In this document: piece by piece, positions 3,027 to 19,694 of the stretch
How positions within the stretch are numbered: position 1 is the stretch's first letter
Layout: every line of letters begins with the position of its first letter
Source: Candidatus Moraniibacteriota bacterium
GTDB lineage: Bacteria > Patescibacteriota > Minisyncoccia > Moranbacterales > UBA11712
DNA: 40,621 nt
Direction of reading: 5' to 3'
Assembly (NCBI GenBank): GCA_028695025.1
Contig: JAQVJV010000007.1
Span: forward strand, 1-40,621
The notes under the pieces: model-generated
The model's input: only the letters and a program-made list of their open reading frames with translations
Told to the model about the DNA's origin: nothing
Databases searched by the model: none
Position numbers and translations under genes: made by a program

Positions 3027-4148
3027 TTATTTTTTCAACTTCTCAAATATTTCTTTTTCCTCCCGCGTGAGATCCCGCGGTGTTACTACTTGTATCTTAA
3101 CATATTGATCGCCATGTCCAAAATGCGACAAGTGCTTCACGCCATGCCCCTTGAGCCGGAACACCTCGCCCGACTGCGTCCCCGCCGGTATTTTGAGCCT
3201 CACTTCCCCGCCAATCGTTTCCACTTCGATCTTGTCGCCAAGCGCCGCCTGCGAAAAAGAAATTTTTGCTTCCGAGTGAATATCATCGTCCTTTCTTTCA
3301 AAGCGCTTGTCGGGAAGAACATGAATAGCAACATAAAGATCTCCCGCTTGTCCCCCATGTTCGCCCGCTTCACCAAGATTTTCAAGACGGATCGACTGGC
3401 CGTCTTTGATCCCCGCCGGAATTTTCACTTTGATTTTTTCATACTCCTGGATCCGCCCGCTTCCCGAACATTTTTTGCATTTTTTCTCGGGAACTTTTCC
3501 TTCTCCGTGGCATTCCGGACAAACGGTCACCTGGGAAAAAGTGCCAAGAATCGTTCTCCGTTGAGTTTGGACTTGCCCTTCACCCTTGCAAGTGGAACAC
3601 CTCACCTTCTTCGATCCCGGCTCAACTCCGTCCCCGTCGCAACTCGAACATTTCACGTACTTATATATTTCCAAATCCTTCTCCATTCCTTCAGCCATTT
3701 CGGAAAAAGTGATTTCCATATCAACTTGAATATCCTCTCCTCGAGCCGTTCGGGATCGACGGGATCGGGGCCCGCCAAATCCAGCCTGCTCGAAAATGTC
3801 TCCAAAAATATCCTCGAAACCAGAAAATCCAGCCTGCCGCCGCTGGCCACCGCCAAAATTGAATTCGAAACCGTCCGCGAACGAGGAAAAATCGCGGAAG
3901 CCCTCGAACCCTCCAAACCCGCCTTGTGATTGCGCCTGCTCAAAAGTCTGGCCATACTGGTCATATTGCGAACGTTTTTCCTTGTCGGAAAGCACCTGAT
4001 AGGCCTCGTTCACTTCCTTAAAGCGCGCCTCATCGCCACCCGCTTTGTCCGGATGGTGCTTGTGTGCCAATTTCCGATAGGCTTTTTTGATTTCCTCGTC
4101 CGTTGCTCCCTTCTCAACGCCGAGTATATTGTAATAGTCTTTAGACAT
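3027..4148 (-). CDS. dnaJ: Chaperone protein DnaJ
   Basis: J domain with HPD, G/F region, four CxxCxGxG repeats. Confidence 0.97.
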
Positions 4149-4203: not shown

Positions 4204-5256
4204 CTATACATCATATCTTATCGTCATTACCTCTCTTTGCTCCCGGACCATTTCAATTAAGCCAGTTTTTTCCAGCATTTTAATAATCAGCAAAATGACC
4301 AGTCCCAGAAAAATTTCCACAATCGTTCCCAAAACCCGCGCAGTGAGAAAAATTCCAATGGCGATAATGATCGGGACATAAAATTTGTCTGTTCCCGAAT
4401 ATTCAAAGAAACTGCGTTCCGTCTTGTCGATATAGGACATGAGGACGTTTTTCATCGGCAACTCCCCGACAACATCCACTCCAAGTTGCTTGGAAAGATC
4501 CTTTTTCGATTTGGCAAGAAGTTTTTGCTGAACCTCGACCGCCGCCGTATCTCCAATCACCTTGGCGATTCCAGGCGCACTGTCTGAATTCAGGATTGTC
4601 TCATCGACTTCTGGCTGGACAAAATTCTTGGAAAGAAAGTCGTCCACTGACATTCCGCTTGTGATATCGTCGATAATTGCCCTTTTCTCCTCCGGCAGAA
4701 CGAACCCGGCCGTCTTGAGACCGAAATCCATTTCCGCTTGAAGCGTTTCATCTTCGAGAAAAATCGGCGACGGAACTGCCGAGCGCTCGAGGAGATGGAA
4801 ATAGTAGGCAACAGCAACAACCATGCAAACAGCTGTCACGAAATATTTGAGCGTGTGGCCGACAAGGCGGTAGAAATTCAAATGAATCCCCTGCGCAATC
4901 TCTTTTTTCGCCTGATTTTCCGTGAGCAGAAAAAGACCAAAAGTAATCAGCGCCCCGACAATCGAGAGGTTGAATCCCAGAAAAAACGGATAGACAACAA
5001 ATCCAAGAACAAAACTCGCAAATTGCAGTTTCCAATTGCGCACAAACATCACCGCGAGCGCAAAAACAATCCCCCAGAGGCTAAAAGCAAGCGTCGGATA
5101 TATCCAGCTGTGAGTTGATTCTCCTAGAAAAGCCCGCCGCAAAACCCACCAACTGGCCCATGTAGCGATCACATTCAACCCGAGGATGGTATACGCAAAG
5201 ATTTTGTTTTTTCCGCTATAGGCGGACCCACCTTTGGCGGGCACGTTTTTTATCAC
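4204..5256 (-). CDS. Membrane protein, hypothetical (in chaperone operon)
   Basis: 350-aa ORF with multiple TM segments between dnaK and dnaJ. Confidence 0.7.
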   Translation of the reverse strand: MIKNVPAKGGSAYSGKNKIFAYTILGLNVIATWASWWVLRRAFLGESTHSWIYPTLAFSLWGIVFALAVMFVRNWKLQFASFVLGFVVYPFFLGFNLSIVGALITFGLFLLTENQAKKEIAQGIHLNFYRLVGHTLKYFVTAVCMVVAVAYYFHLLERSAVPSPIFLEDETLQAEMDFGLKTAGFVLPEEKRAIIDDITSGMSVDDFLSKNFVQPEVDETILNSDSAPGIAKVIGDTAAVEVQQKLLAKSKKDLSKQLGVDVVGELPMKNVLMSYIDKTERSFFEYSGTDKFYVPIIIAIGIFLTARVLGTIVEIFLGLVILLIIKMLEKTGLIEMVREQREVMTIRYDV

Positions 5257-5321: not shown

Positions 5322-7250
5322 TTACTTTTTCTCTCCATCATCAACCACTTCGCCCTCTTTCACGTCGCCGTCTTTTTTCTCTTCCGTAGCGCCTTCTGCC
5401 GGTTTTTCTTCGGTTTTGCTTTCACCGGCCTTCGCCTTGTCCGCTTCTTGAGCTGCTGCGTAAAGCTCCTGTCCGATTTTCTGCGCTTCTTGCGACAATT
5501 CCTCCGTCGCTTTCTTGATTGTCTCCAAATCGTCGCTATCTTTCACTTTCTTTAAGGCTTCAACTTTCTCCTCGACCGGCTTTTTCTTGTCAGTGGCGAT
5601 TTTTTCACCGGCATCACGCAAGGCTTTTTCGGTTGTATATACCAGCGTATCGGCCATATTTCGTGCCTCCACTAGATCTTTTTTCTTCTTATCCTCTTCC
5701 GCATGCGCTTCGGCTTCCTTTGCCATTTTTTCCACTTCTTCCTTGGAAAGTCCGGTTGAGGCCTCAATCCGGATAGATTGTTCTTTCCCAGTTGCCTTAT
5801 CCTTCGCTTTCACGCTCAAGATTCCGTTCGCGTCGATGTCGAAAGAAACTTCAATTTGAGGCACTCCGCGCGGAGCCGGCGGAATCCCGTCAAGCATAAA
5901 CCGCCCAAGGGTCTTGTTGTCGACCGCCATTTCCCGCTCCCCTTGGAGAACATGAATTTCCACACTCGGCTGATTGTCTGCCGCTGTGGAAAATGTTTGC
6001 GACTTCGAAGTTGGAACAGTCGTATTCCGGTTAATGAGAGGTGTTCGCACCCCACCCATTGTTTCAATTCCGAGCGTAAGCGGCGTCACATCGAGAAGCA
6101 GCACGTCTTTCACATCTCCCGCAAGAACTCCACCCTGAATTGCAGCACCAAGCGCCACTACTTCGTCCGGATTCACCGTCGCGTTCGGTTTTTTCCCGAA
6201 GAATTTTTCCACCGTCGCAAGGACCAGCGGCATGCGGGTCATTCCGCCTACCATCACAACTTCATTGATGTCCCCCGCCGAAAGTTTTGCATCTTCAAGC
6301 GCTTTTTTGCATGGCTCAAGCGTTTTTTCCACCAATTCTCCGACCAGCTCTTCGAGTTTCGCTCGTGTCAGCTTCATCACCAAATGTTTCGGCCCGCTCG
6401 CGTCCGATGTGATGAACGGCTGGTTGACTTCCGTTTCCATAGCTGTCGAAAGCTCGATTTTCGCTTTCTCCGCCGCTTCTTTGATCCGCTGAAGAGCGAG
6501 ACTATCATTCGACAAATCAATTCCCTGATCTTTTTTGAATTCCTCGAGAATCCAGCCGATGATTTTTTGATCAAAGTCGTCGCCGCCGAGATGTGTGTCA
6601 CCATTCGTCGATTTCACTTCCACCGTGTCATCACCCACTTCAAGGATGGAAATGTCAAAAGTTCCGCCCCCGAGGTCATACACTGCGATTTTTTCGTTCT
6701 TTTTCTTGTCGAAACCATAGGCAAGCGCCGCCGCTGTCGGCTCATTGATGATGCGCTTCACTGTGAGGCCGGCAATTTCTCCCGCTTCTTTCGTGGCTTT
6801 TCTTTGCGCATCGTCGAAATAGGCCGGAACAGTGATCACCGCTTCCGTGATAGTTTCTCCCAATTTTTCTTCCGCGTCAGCTTTGAGTTTCTGGAGGATC
6901 ATCGCTGAAATTTCCTGCGGAGTATAGCTCTTGTCTCCCATTTTCACTTTCACTCCGCCGTTTGATTTTTCAATTTTGAACGGCATGAGCTTGAGATCGC
7001 GCTGGACTTCTTCATCTTCAAACCGGCGTCCGATGAGTCGCTTGATGGAAAACAGCGTATTTTCAGGATTGGTCACCGCTTGGCGCTTGGCAAGAAGCCC
7101 CGCCAGCCGCTCTCCCGATTTAGAAATTGCCACCATCGATGGCGTAGTCCGCGCTCCCTCCTTGTTTTCGACGATTTTTGGCGATCCGGCTTCCACTACT
7201 GCCATAGCAGAGTTGGTTGTCCCGAGATCAATGCCTAGTATTTTGGACAT
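5322..7250 (-). CDS. dnaK: Molecular chaperone DnaK
   Basis: [15 protein letters not shown] start; full-length Hsp70 motifs. Confidence 0.98.
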
Positions 7251-7337: not shown

Positions 7338-7748
7338 TTACTTCCCATTTACCTTCACCGCGATTTTTTTCGGTTTTGCTTCCTCTGCTTTTGGAACAGT
7401 GACGCGAAGCATGCCTTTTTCATAGGTCGCCTCCGCCTTGTCGCCCTTCACATGCATCGGAAGAACCACCGACCGAGAGAAACTTCCCTCCCTAATTTCT
7501 TTTCGATAATAATCCTCACGCTTCGTTTCTTTCTTTTCCTCACGATGTCCGGAAACAGAAAGAACATCATTTTCGACATTGATATCAACATTGTCCGCCT
7601 CCACACCCGGAAGAGCCATCTCGACAATCACGTTGTCTTTGTCCTGACGCACGTCCATCGCCGGCACAAAACCGGCCGACGGCCACATATCCTCGTCAAA
7701 AAAGCGGTCAATTTCGCGAAAAGGTGTCCATCTTGTAAGTCCGTTCAT
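7338..7748 (-). CDS. Hsp20/alpha-crystallin small heat-shock protein
   Basis: alpha-crystallin domain (VIVEMALPGVEADNVDINVENDVLSVSGHR). Confidence 0.93.
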   Translation of the reverse strand: MNGLTRWTPFREIDRFFDEDMWPSAGFVPAMDVRQDKDNVIVEMALPGVEADNVDINVENDVLSVSGHREEKKETKREDYYRKEIREGSFSRSVVLPMHVKGDKAEATYEKGMLRVTVPKAEEAKPKKIAVKVNGK

Positions 7749-7799: not shown

Positions 7800-8627
7800 T
7801 CATTCCACTTCCACTCTCGCCGCCCGCACAATCCGCCCATTCAGCCGATAGCCTTTCTGCAACACTTTTTTCACTTTTTCGCCTTTTCCAGCCATCGCCT
7901 CGTGGATCCCCGGATCAAAATCGTCTCCCGCTTTCACCGAAATTTCTTCGATATCATTATTCCGCAAAACATCTTCGAGCTGCTTTTTTATATACACGAT
8001 TCCCTCCACCCATCCGTTTTCTTTTTTCTCTTCCGGCACATGGGCAAGCGACGCCTCAAAATTGTCGACAACTGGCAAAATCTGCTCGATCACGTCCATT
8101 TTGGCAAACTTACGGAAATCTTCCTGCCGCTTCGCCTGACCTTTCTTGTAATTCTCAAAATCCGCTTGGCAACGCTTCCAGGAGTCGAGATAACCTTCGC
8201 CCTTCAAACTTTGGATATATTTCTCCAATAAGTGCTTTGTCCCATTAGCCAAATCTTGCTTTAACGCGTCATCTGGATTAAACCATTTAAATTCTTTTTC
8301 AAATTCTTCATTAGTCTCAACCAATGCTTCATCCCCATCGTATTTACACACAAAATCGATAAATACAAAATGTTTTTTCTTGTGAAAATCTTTTTCAAAA
8401 ATACTCTCATTGAAACCCATCTCCCCGATAATCTCAACATCCAAACTTGTTTCTTCTTTGGCTTCTCTGACCACAGCTTTTTTCAGACTTTCACCCATCT
8501 CGACGTGTCCGCCAAAACAAGTATATTTTCCGCCCCACTTTTTTCCTTTCGCTAGAAGAATTTTTCCTTCATTATTCACAATCAACGCTCCAACAATTGG
8601 CTCTGGATATTTTTTTTCCTCACTCAT
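7800..8627 (-). CDS. grpE: Nudix hydrolase-GrpE fusion protein
   Basis: Nudix box GGHVEMGESLKKAVVREAKEETSL followed by GrpE-like WKRCQADFENYKKGQ...ILPVVDNFEASL...FDPGIHEAM...GYRLNGRIVRAARVEV. Confidence 0.88.
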   Translation of the reverse strand: MSEEKKYPEPIVGALIVNNEGKILLAKGKKWGGKYTCFGGHVEMGESLKKAVVREAKEETSLDVEIIGEMGFNESIFEKDFHKKKHFVFIDFVCKYDGDEALVETNEEFEKEFKWFNPDDALKQDLANGTKHLLEKYIQSLKGEGYLDSWKRCQADFENYKKGQAKRQEDFRKFAKMDVIEQILPVVDNFEASLAHVPEEKKENGWVEGIVYIKKQLEDVLRNNDIEEISVKAGDDFDPGIHEAMAGKGEKVKKVLQKGYRLNGRIVRAARVEVE

Positions 8628-8655: not shown

Positions 8656-9411
8656 TTATACTTTATACAATATGCTTGATACGATCAGCAAAACCAGCGT
8701 TCCGCCCATCAGCCTTTTCATATACTCAATCAGCGATTTGTTGCGGGCGTATTTCATCCGTTTCGGCCCGATGAGAGCCAAGATCCCTTTTTCGCCTGAT
8801 GCGGTCTTGTACGGCGTTACCATCATCGAGCAATTGGAAATCTCCTTGATCGGATTCTCTTTCCCGATGAAAATTTTCACCTCATTATCTTTGAGCTTCA
8901 CCAGAAGCTGATCCACCCGCTCGTCGATATAGTCGAGTGTTTCCGCGAGACGGCACAAATCGTCCATTTCCTGAAATTCGGGCTCGTCCAAGAGTTCCCG
9001 CATCCCGAAATCATAGAATTCGTCTTTCCCGATCACGCCGGAAATGGCAAGATTTCCCGAAAGTCCCGAAAGCAGTTTTGCCGCCGTTCTCTCAAGCCGC
9101 GTATTCTTGGCTTTGAGCTTCAGAAGTTCCGCTTGCAGTTTCTTTTGTTCGGCTTTGGAAAGCTTTTTGTCCGGCATTATTTCCTCGACGAAATAGCGAT
9201 AACCCTTGTCCGTCGGAATCCTTCCGGCCGACGTGTGCGGCTGGAAAAGATAGCCCATATCTTCCAGCTCGTTCATTTCTGCCCGAATCGTCGCCGAAGA
9301 AAGATCGAAGCCGTATTCTTTGGCAATATGCTTTGACCCGACCGGCACCGCCGTTTCGGTATATTCTTTCACCACCACCGAAAGCAAATTTTTCTGGCGA
9401 TCTGTGAGCAT
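8656..9411 (-). CDS. hrcA: Heat-inducible transcription repressor HrcA
   Basis: MLTDRQKNLLSVVVKEY...VGSKHIAKEY...SSATIRAEMNELEDMGYLFQPHTSAGRIPTDKGYRYFV; ATG at 9411 preferred over the TTG at 9426 in the ORF track. Confidence 0.93.
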   Translation of the reverse strand: MLTDRQKNLLSVVVKEYTETAVPVGSKHIAKEYGFDLSSATIRAEMNELEDMGYLFQPHTSAGRIPTDKGYRYFVEEIMPDKKLSKAEQKKLQAELLKLKAKNTRLERTAAKLLSGLSGNLAISGVIGKDEFYDFGMRELLDEPEFQEMDDLCRLAETLDYIDERVDQLLVKLKDNEVKIFIGKENPIKEISNCSMMVTPYKTASGEKGILALIGPKRMKYARNKSLIEYMKRLMGGTLVLLIVSSILYKV

Positions 9412-9419
9412 AACCAAAA

Positions 9420-9457
9420 CATTCAATGTTCGGGATACCCGAACATTGAATATTGGG
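9420..9457. repeat. Palindromic repeat ATTCAATGTTCGGG-ATA-CCCGAACATTGAAT
   Basis: 14-bp perfect inverted repeat between the CIRCE and hrcA; related sequence recurs inside cysS. Confidence 0.8.
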
Positions 9458-9471
9458 GTAAGCCCGTATAA

Positions 9472-9498
9472 CTAGCACTCAACCAATCCGAGTGCTAA
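9472..9498 (-). promoter_or_regulatory. CIRCE operator (HrcA binding site) of the hrcA operon
   Basis: TTAGCACTC-N9-GAGTGCTAG, one mismatch to consensus. Confidence 0.95.
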
Positions 9499-16994: not shown

Positions 16995-19607
16995 CTATTT
17001 TATGACAATTTTTCCTTTTTCAATGTCGATTTTTACTTTCTGCCCTTCTTTCACTTTTCCCTCGACGATACGCAGGGCCAACTCGTCCAAGACTAAATTT
17101 TGGATAGCTCTTTTCAAGGGTCGCGCCCCATAGATCGGGTCAAAACCCTCTTTCACCAAAAAATCTTTTGCCGCCGGACTCACCGAAAGGGTGATATTTT
17201 TTCCAACCAGCCGCCGCGCCACCAGATCGAGCTGAAGATCAACTATTTTTTTGATTTCACCCGTTCCCAAAGGGTGAAAAATAATGATCTCATCCACCCG
17301 GTTCAAAAATTCCGGCTTGAACTGCTCGCGAAGAGACCCCAAAACCCGTTCCTTCATTTCCTCCTCGCGCAAAACAAAATTTTTGCCTTTCTCTTCTTTG
17401 AACCCGATTTCCTGCATCTTATAGATAATGTCCGACCCGACATTGGAAGTCATGACGATCACCGTGTTTTTGAAATTGACCGCCCGCCCCTTTCCGTCCG
17501 TCAACCGCCCGTCGTCAAGGATCTGGAGCAGGATATTGAAAACTTCCGGATGGGCTTTTTCAATCTCGTCAAAAAGGATGAGGCTATACGGCCGGCGGCG
17601 GACCTTCTCCGTGATTTGCCCGCCTTCTTCGTGGCCGATATATCCCGGGGGAGATCCGATGAGCTTTGCCACGCTGTGCGCCTCCATGAATTCGCTCATA
17701 TCCACCCGGATCATGGCATTTTCATCATTGAACAAAAATTCCGCGAGAGTTTTGGCAAGCTCCGTTTTCCCCACCCCGGTGGGTCCGAGAAAAATGAATG
17801 ATCCGATCGGCCGATTTTCTTCGCTGATTCCGGCGCGGCTACGGCGAAGAGCGTTCGCCACCGCTTTTATAGCTTCATCCTGGCCAACCACCCGCATTTT
17901 GAGTTCCTCTTCGGCTTTTGCCAGCTTTTCCATTTCACCTTCGAGCATTTTCGAGACAGGAATCCCTGTCCAGCGCGAAACCACCCGGGCGATATCCTCT
18001 TCCGTCACCTCTTCTTTCAAAATCGGATTCTTGCTTTGCATCTGCGCCAGTTTTTTCTGTTCATTCTTGATTTCTTGCTCAAGCTCCGGAATTTTTCCGT
18101 AGCGGATTTCCGCCACCCGGCTCAATTCCCCTTGCCGTTCCAAAACATCCGATTCCATCCGCAATTTTTCGATCCCGCTTTTGTGTGTCCGGATATTGGT
18201 GATGAGATCCTTTTCGCTCTTCCATTGCAGTTTCAGCTTGTTCGCTTTTTCGTTTATTTCCGCCACTTTTTTCTCGATTTCTCTCAACCGGTCTTTTGAA
18301 GTTTTGTTCTTTTTTTCCTTTTTCAGCGCTTCTTTTTCAATTTCAAGTCTCCGCTTTTCGCGCTCCATCTGATCAAGCTCCGCCGGCATACTGTCGATTT
18401 CCATGCGAAGGGACGAAGTTGCCTCATCAATGAGGTCAACCGCCTTGTCCGGCAAATTGCGATCGGTGATATAGCGGTCGGAAAGTTCGGCCGCCGCCAC
18501 AATCGCGCTGTCGGTGATCCGCACCCCGTGATGAATTTCGTATTTCTCTTTGAGCCCGCGCAAAATGGAAATTGTGTCTTCAATTGACGGCTCACTCACA
18601 AAAACCGGCTGAAAGCGGCGTTCGAGAGCCGCATCCCTCTCAATGTACCTCTGATATTCTTTGAGCGTGGTCGCCCCGATCGCCCGCGCTTTTCCGCGCG
18701 CAAGAGCCGGCTTGATCATATTCGACGCATCCATCGAACCCTCGATGGCGCCCGCCCCCACCAAAGTATGCAATTCATCGATGAACAGGATATATTTCCC
18801 GGCCGACTTTTCGACTTCATTCATGATTGCCTTGAACCGCTCCTCGAATTCTCCCCGGAATTTCGAACCGGCAAGGAGCGAACCGAGGTCAAGCGACAAA
18901 ATTTCCTTCCCTTTGAGCGTTTCCGGAACATCCCCGGCTATGATTCTTTGCGCGAGCCCTTCCACGATCGCCGTTTTTCCGGTTCCGGCTTCCCCGATCA
19001 GCACCGGATTGTTTTTCGTCCGCCGGGTGAGCACCTGCATGATGCGCCGGATTTCCTCTTCCCTCCCAATCACCGGATCAAGCTTTTCCTCCGCCGCTTC
19101 TTTCGTGAGATTGACGGTATATTTTTCGATAACCTGATATTTCCCTTCCGGGGCGGGGCTGTCCACCCGCTGGTTGCCTCGCACTTCTTTCATAATTTTA
19201 GTTACTTTATCGCTGTTAATATTTGCTTCTTCGAGAATTTTCTTGGCACGGCTTCCCACTTTGAGAAGCGCCGCAAAAAGGTGCTCCGTGGAAACGAACT
19301 CGTCCCCCATCCCCCGCGCTTCATGGAAAGATTCCTGAAGGACCGCCGCCATTTCCGAAGAAAGAAAAAATTGGGGCGTTCCGGTCACTTTTGGGATTTT
19401 TTCAATATCTTTATATATTTTCTGCCTCAACTGTTCCCGATCGACCTCCAGCTTGTCGACAATAATTGGAACTACGCTTTCCGACTGGCCGAGAAGGATA
19501 TAGAGGAGATGCAAAACATCCACCACGTTCTGTTGGAGATTTTGCGAAATTTGCTGGGCCCCTTGGAGGGCTTCCTGCGATTTGAATGTGAGTTTGTTGA
19601 GATCCAT
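16995..19607 (-). CDS. clpB: ATP-dependent chaperone ClpB
   Basis: Two AAA+ Walker A ([20 protein letters not shown]), coiled-coil M domain. Confidence 0.97.
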
Positions 19608-19667: not shown

Positions 19668-19694
19668 TTGGCACTCTCATTATCCGAGTGCTAA
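19668..19694 (-). promoter_or_regulatory. CIRCE operator of clpB
   Basis: TTAGCACTC-N9-GAGTGCCAA, one mismatch. Confidence 0.93.

Follow-up and report, generated by a model that had tools for sequence, protein, structure and literature searches.

A Nudix domain in place of the GrpE tail in Candidatus Moraniibacteriota, and exchange of modules ahead of the GrpE core

We analysed a 40,621-nucleotide stretch of a Candidatus Moraniibacteriota genome (the window; contig JAQVJV010000007.1). Its grpE gene encodes a Nudix domain joined to a GrpE core, and the data support a genuine fusion in which the Nudix domain replaces the usual GrpE tail. Among the relatives, the front end of GrpE is a slot in which Nudix modules have been exchanged between lineages, even inside one genus. 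This modular turnover is the most unusual part of the finding. GrpE, the nucleotide exchange factor of DnaK, is a small cofactor found almost universally and is commonly assigned a single job. In Moranbacteria, which are ultra-small and uncultured, its front end has repeatedly been swapped for what look like active nucleotide hydrolases, and this suggests that stress nucleotides are linked directly to the Hsp70 cycle. The fusion also illustrates clearly how one domain can be replaced at a fixed point in a core chaperone gene of bacteria with reduced genomes. A search of the open-access literature turned up no published description of a Nudix-GrpE fusion. Each half belongs to a known family, and the architecture may stand uncommented in domain databases.

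The fusion gene and its heat-shock operon

The gene (7800–8627, minus strand) has an ATG start and runs through 275 codons with neither a stop nor a frameshift. The Nudix domain occupies aa 10–136 (8220–8600, minus strand; Pfam PF00293 NUDIX, E 3.4e-21). The GrpE core (7800–8195, minus strand) matches Pfam PF01025 over aa 129–274 (E 3.5e-33; 115 bits against a curated cut-off of 25.8) and carries the conserved DnaK-contact positions R152 and K162. Only ∼8 residues precede the Nudix domain, which stands in the place of the disordered N-terminal tail seen in Mycobacterium tuberculosis (Mtb) GrpE. The first-pass annotation had described one uninterrupted reading frame of this kind, with the Nudix domain substituting for the N-terminal region of GrpE, and the domain search of the 275-aa protein bore this description out. 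The gene is the sole grpE of its genome; the whole source genome (983,882 bases, 98.98% complete) gave no second GrpE match.

The order of the genes on the minus strand is hrcA, Nudix-grpE, hsp20, dnaK, a further ORF and dnaJ, which agrees with the earlier placement of the fusion inside the heat-shock operon where grpE is expected. These correspond to the HrcA heat-shock repressor (8656–9426; PF01628, E 1.7e-22), a small heat-shock protein (7338–7748; PF00011, E 8.1e-23), DnaK (5322–7250; PF00012, E 1.2e-258), an apparently membrane-spanning protein of 350 aa without any Pfam match (4204–5256) and DnaJ (3027–4148; PF01556/PF00226/PF00684). A CIRCE operator with one mismatch lies upstream of hrcA (9472–9498). 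Two CIRCE sites were found in the window where 0.01 would be expected by chance; the second, CIRCE-like element (19668–19694, one mismatch) is located upstream of a ClpB-type gene (16995–19607, minus strand). In nearly all the loci of the relatives, hrcA is upstream and dnaK or hsp20 downstream of the fused or plain grpE, and the fusion is therefore the operon's own grpE.

The AT-richness of the Nudix-coding part, pointed out in the first-pass annotation, was reproduced. Its GC content is 0.36 (GC3 0.34) against 0.48 (GC3 0.55) for the GrpE core; the other genes measured have 0.46–0.50, and only 1.9% of 420-bp windows are equally AT-rich. An AT-rich half adjoining a GC-richer core is what an assembly or binning artefact could also produce. 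However, the identical architecture is present at the same locus in dozens of independent genomes and assemblies, and one of these proteins (L032) is ∼70% identical to the fusion protein from end to end. We therefore reject an assembly join at the Nudix/GrpE boundary and regard an artefact of any kind as having next to no probability. We also considered whether GrpE alone is made from an internal start. Only 13 of 64 fusions have a start with a Shine-Dalgarno-like sequence at the junction; the arrangement is therefore not conserved, and the possibility was rejected.

An AlphaFold2 model computed from 24 sequences had a mean pLDDT of 86.5, and the relative placement of the domains in it is uncertain because the pTM is low (0.54). 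The model predicts a continuous helix of 68 residues (aa 128–195; 8043–8246, minus strand) that is common to the Nudix C-terminus and the long helix of GrpE, with the junction at about aa 140–150 by sequence comparisons. In the fold search Nudix structures came first (4kyx, NudI, Ap6A and Ap4A hydrolases), 4kyx with a probability of 1.00 and a TM-score of 0.75 on the target length (0.82 for chain B). The GrpE half was confirmed by sequence comparison.

Distribution of the fusion and exchange of its N-terminal module

Searches with the whole fusion protein in 57 related genomes, together with a scan of 84,980 species that covers close relatives only, recovered the architecture from many Candidatus Moraniibacteriota/Moranbacteria genomes. 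Both domains were present in all the 33 fused proteins scanned. A profile built from these 33 was run on 131 genomes of the order, 286 of the class and 287 of the phylum, and the loci were fetched. Among the 115 classifiable grpE genes of the order (L223, truncated by a contig end, and the N-containing L176 and L203 being left out of the count), 56 are Nudix-fused, 3 are fused to a nucleotidyltransferase (NTase)-like domain and 56 are plain. All eight genomes of the window's family have the fusion. It is rare outside the order in the class and phylum genomes searched, where clear cases were confined to one class family (f53) and one genome of another class (G619); further fusions outside the order are L038 (Parcubacteria), L044 (unclassified bacterium) and L053 (Magasanikbacteria). 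Two candidates were set aside. G234, a fusion by its profile coordinates, is actually a plain GrpE with an acidic tail, and G052, a candidate for separate Nudix and grpE genes, has N in the contig at the join that makes a reading impossible.

In a Nudix tree the fused domains form three clades, A (which includes the domain of the window fusion), B and C, plus a single sequence, L012; L273 groups with clade B only loosely. Members of the three clades are nearly all GrpE-fused, the non-fused exceptions being L249 and L235, with L238 cut by a contig end, and the close clade-A relatives within the order are almost only GrpE fusions. The GrpE core is constant, and what precedes it varies: a Nudix domain of clade A, B or C, an NTase-like domain, a tandem of two Nudix domains or an ordinary short tail can take this one position. 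The module boundary is sharp, directly ahead of W-K-R-C-Q-A-D-F.

The GrpE-core tree broadly tracks the families, and on it at least 26 changes of N-terminal state are required. Since many of its forks are weak, the case for exchange rests on three firmer facts. The first is that six genera have more than one N-terminal state: B/C in g2, A/C in g23, B/plain in g62, C/plain in g15 and in g21, and B together with a tandem B+A in g50. The second comes from pairs. Two genomes of one genus (G007 and G001) are 91% identical in hrcA, 95% in dnaK and 71% in the GrpE core, and only 34% in the N-terminus; mismatched pairs in the window's family have Nudix identities of 27–34% against 71–82% for the cores. 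In pairs that share a module type, the identity of the Nudix part is close to that of the core (65% and 73% for L001/L093; 91% and 86% for L072/L073). The third is given by AU tests. The eight GrpE cores of the window's family (f1) form one clade (support 95/81), and holding their Nudix halves as one clade was rejected (AU p = 4e-46). A single clade was also rejected for the order's clade-A cores (AU p = 4e-71) and for the clade-C cores (AU p = 3e-46). Fast divergence rather than exchange was discarded on the pairwise identities and on the AU tests, which reject a single history for the Nudix halves and the cores.

Several individual loci are worth recording. In G082 one ORF (L169:156-1706, minus strand) encodes a clade-B Nudix, then a clade-A Nudix, then GrpE. 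The N-terminal NTase-like domain (L054:4563-5489, L030:1426-2403 and L063:4455-5414) was found only GrpE-fused, in three genomes of three families; it has a GS-x-GL...DxD-type motif, and its assignment is weak, the best Pfam matches being NTP_transf_2 (E 0.004) and DUF2204 (E 0.009). G007, a member of the window's family, has a clade-A Nudix on a DUF3850/ASCH domain (L249:890-1594, minus strand), while its own GrpE carries a clade-B Nudix. A free clade-B Nudix in G108 (L235:488-1030, minus strand) has a C-terminal YLQMQNFSDGRRK that resembles the Nudix-GrpE junction, and the GrpE of G108 is plain; L235 is possibly a module freed from an earlier fusion. For L072/L073, dS is 0.15 in the Nudix half against 0.68 in the GrpE half, 0.28 in hrcA and 0.40 in dnaK, hinting at a recent transfer of the module alone.

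The first-pass annotation had taken the AT-rich Nudix part as a sign of a later fusion. This holds for the particular AT-rich module and not for the architecture itself, which is widespread in Moranbacteria: the composition fits a module that entered the window's lineage recently, not an architecture that arose recently. Across 64 fusions GC3 of the Nudix half is lower by 0.047 (Wilcoxon p 3e-4, an optimistic value as the rows are related).

Catalytic residues and the likely role of the fused domain

The Nudix box of the window fusion (aa 40–62) reads G40-x5-E46-x7-R54E55-xx-E58E59, with R54, E55, E58 and E59 as the catalytic residues. It differs from the consensus Gx5Ex7REUxEExGU only at the last conserved Gly, which is Ser61, so the box earlier called complete is so apart from this position. 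In the alignment of 33 fused proteins R54, E55 and E59 do not vary and E46 and E58 hardly do, and in clade A the family-specific H86 and W115 are also invariant. The strict pattern was found in 50 of the 64 fusions, most of the others departing from it by a single substitution or by an insertion of one or two residues; by inspection REx2E[ED] is retained in 61, lost in L103 and L175, and cut by missing sequence in L104. Judged from these residues, the Nudix domain is most likely catalytically competent. Its dN/dS is about 0.1–0.2 in pairs with measurable dS, resembling that of the GrpE half, which indicates purifying selection. On the GrpE side, R152 and K162 align with R64 and K74 of Mtb GrpE (8gb3), and R75 of the latter is replaced by Gly163.

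In Mtb GrpE the long helix contacts the substrate-binding domain of DnaK, and the disordered N-tail is required for substrate release (PMC10803776). Ap4A, which is broken down by Nudix enzymes, forms crosslinks with DnaK, GroEL and ClpB (PMC10148737). The role of the tail, the presence of a Nudix domain at the same place and the crosslink of Ap4A to DnaK lead us to favour, with moderate confidence, a working GrpE that carries an active Nudix hydrolase beside DnaK, is under heat-shock control and removes a stress nucleotide. The one continuous helix predicted in the model would fix the Nudix domain to the tip of the long helix of GrpE. HrcA/CIRCE control would cause the fusion to be made together with DnaK, and each GrpE dimer would place two Nudix domains adjoining the substrate-binding side of DnaK. 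There they might hydrolyse a nucleotide made under stress, at a place where it could bind DnaK or interfere with it; adenine compounds, for example ApnA, ADP-ribose or an NAD-type dinucleotide, are the likeliest candidates. The modules filling the slot, Nudix and rarely NTase-like, have been exchanged between lineages. Coupling of nucleotide chemistry to DnaK, which the first-pass annotation had also raised, is plausible, and the fusion, as a natural protein, makes the old observation of Ap4A binding to DnaK testable.

Some observations weigh against this reading or narrow it. The degraded boxes of L103 and L175 count against an active hydrolase. Mtb GrpE fails in substrate release without its tail; a GrpE that lacks the tail could thus be impaired if neither the Nudix domain nor the short charged N-terminus makes up for it. 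The 56 plain grpE genes of the same order mean that a Nudix-DnaK coupling is not essential. Three Nudix clades in one slot, probably with different specificities, argue against one precise substrate. We had also looked to the nearest structures for the substrate; matches were obtained to ADP-ribose, NTP, ApnA and RNA pyrophosphohydrolases, and no substrate was therefore assigned. In our judgement ApnA is a tentative choice, ADP-ribose or NAD-type compounds are equally so, and modified NTPs are somewhat less probable, on a level with all other classes.

The main rival, to which we give a smaller but real chance, is that a house-cleaning Nudix enzyme gains heat-shock control through an essential chaperone gene without any mechanistic coupling to DnaK. 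The HrcA/CIRCE control of the operon, the fact that different Nudix clades serve equally well and the close relatives that manage without a Nudix are all in keeping with co-expression of this kind. A separate gene in the operon would suffice for it, yet no clear separate Nudix neighbours were seen at the loci, the sole candidate being G052 with N at the join, and the clade-A Nudix is almost only GrpE-fused in the order. Alternatively, the Nudix fold may cap a shortened GrpE helix or stabilise its dimer, or may serve as a nucleotide-binding sensor, with catalysis incidental. The predicted direct continuity of the helix, the several unrelated domains that occupy the slot and the degraded boxes of L175 and L103 fit such a structural role, but nearly all the other fusions keep the catalytic residues across three divergent clades and the Nudix half is under purifying selection; we consider this role improbable.

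The rapid replacement of modules within genera could also reflect a conflict, their turnover being driven by phages or mobile elements that put pressure on the DnaK machine, or by a conflict based on NAD or ADP-ribose. The Nudix part matches a PADLOC candidate, PDC-S07 (E 1.5e-11). This lead was dropped, the similarity being no more than Nudix homology and the context a purely housekeeping heat-shock operon, and no defence genes were seen beside the fusion; we rate a conflict as very unlikely. Returning to the active hydrolase on a working GrpE, the occupants of the slot (Nudix clades A, B and C, and the NTase-like domain) are domains that act on nucleotides. The slot might, more speculatively, be an exchangeable effector site, where GrpE-dedicated modules acting on nucleotides are shuffled to tune Hsp70 to particular stress nucleotides and nucleotide signalling is a built-in input of the DnaK cycle.

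Comparison with known systems

With the GrpE family (PF01025; 1dkg, 4ani, 3a6m, 8gb3) the fusion shares the long helix, the bundle, the beta domain, the DnaK-contact residues and the operon with hrcA, dnaK and dnaJ. Instead of the disordered N-terminal tail, it has a folded Nudix domain whose last helix is predicted to continue into the GrpE helix. With Nudix hydrolases of the MutT and ADP-ribose pyrophosphatase type it has in common the complete fold and the catalytic box, and 4kyx of Rickettsia felis is the best match of the Nudix part both by sequence (E 2.9e-11) and by fold; these enzymes, however, are not fused to a chaperone cofactor and have Gly at the last position of the box. The Nudix part also matches the NAD(+) diphosphatase NudC (NF001299) at 48.9 bits, but the curated cut-off of 158 bits is far above this score and the N-terminal part of NudC is missing. 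The PilZ-DnaK proteins of Myxococcus xanthus likewise join a nucleotide-related domain to the Hsp70 machine (PMC10313047); there a PilZ domain (c-di-GMP-type) is on DnaK itself, whereas here a Nudix hydrolase domain is on GrpE.
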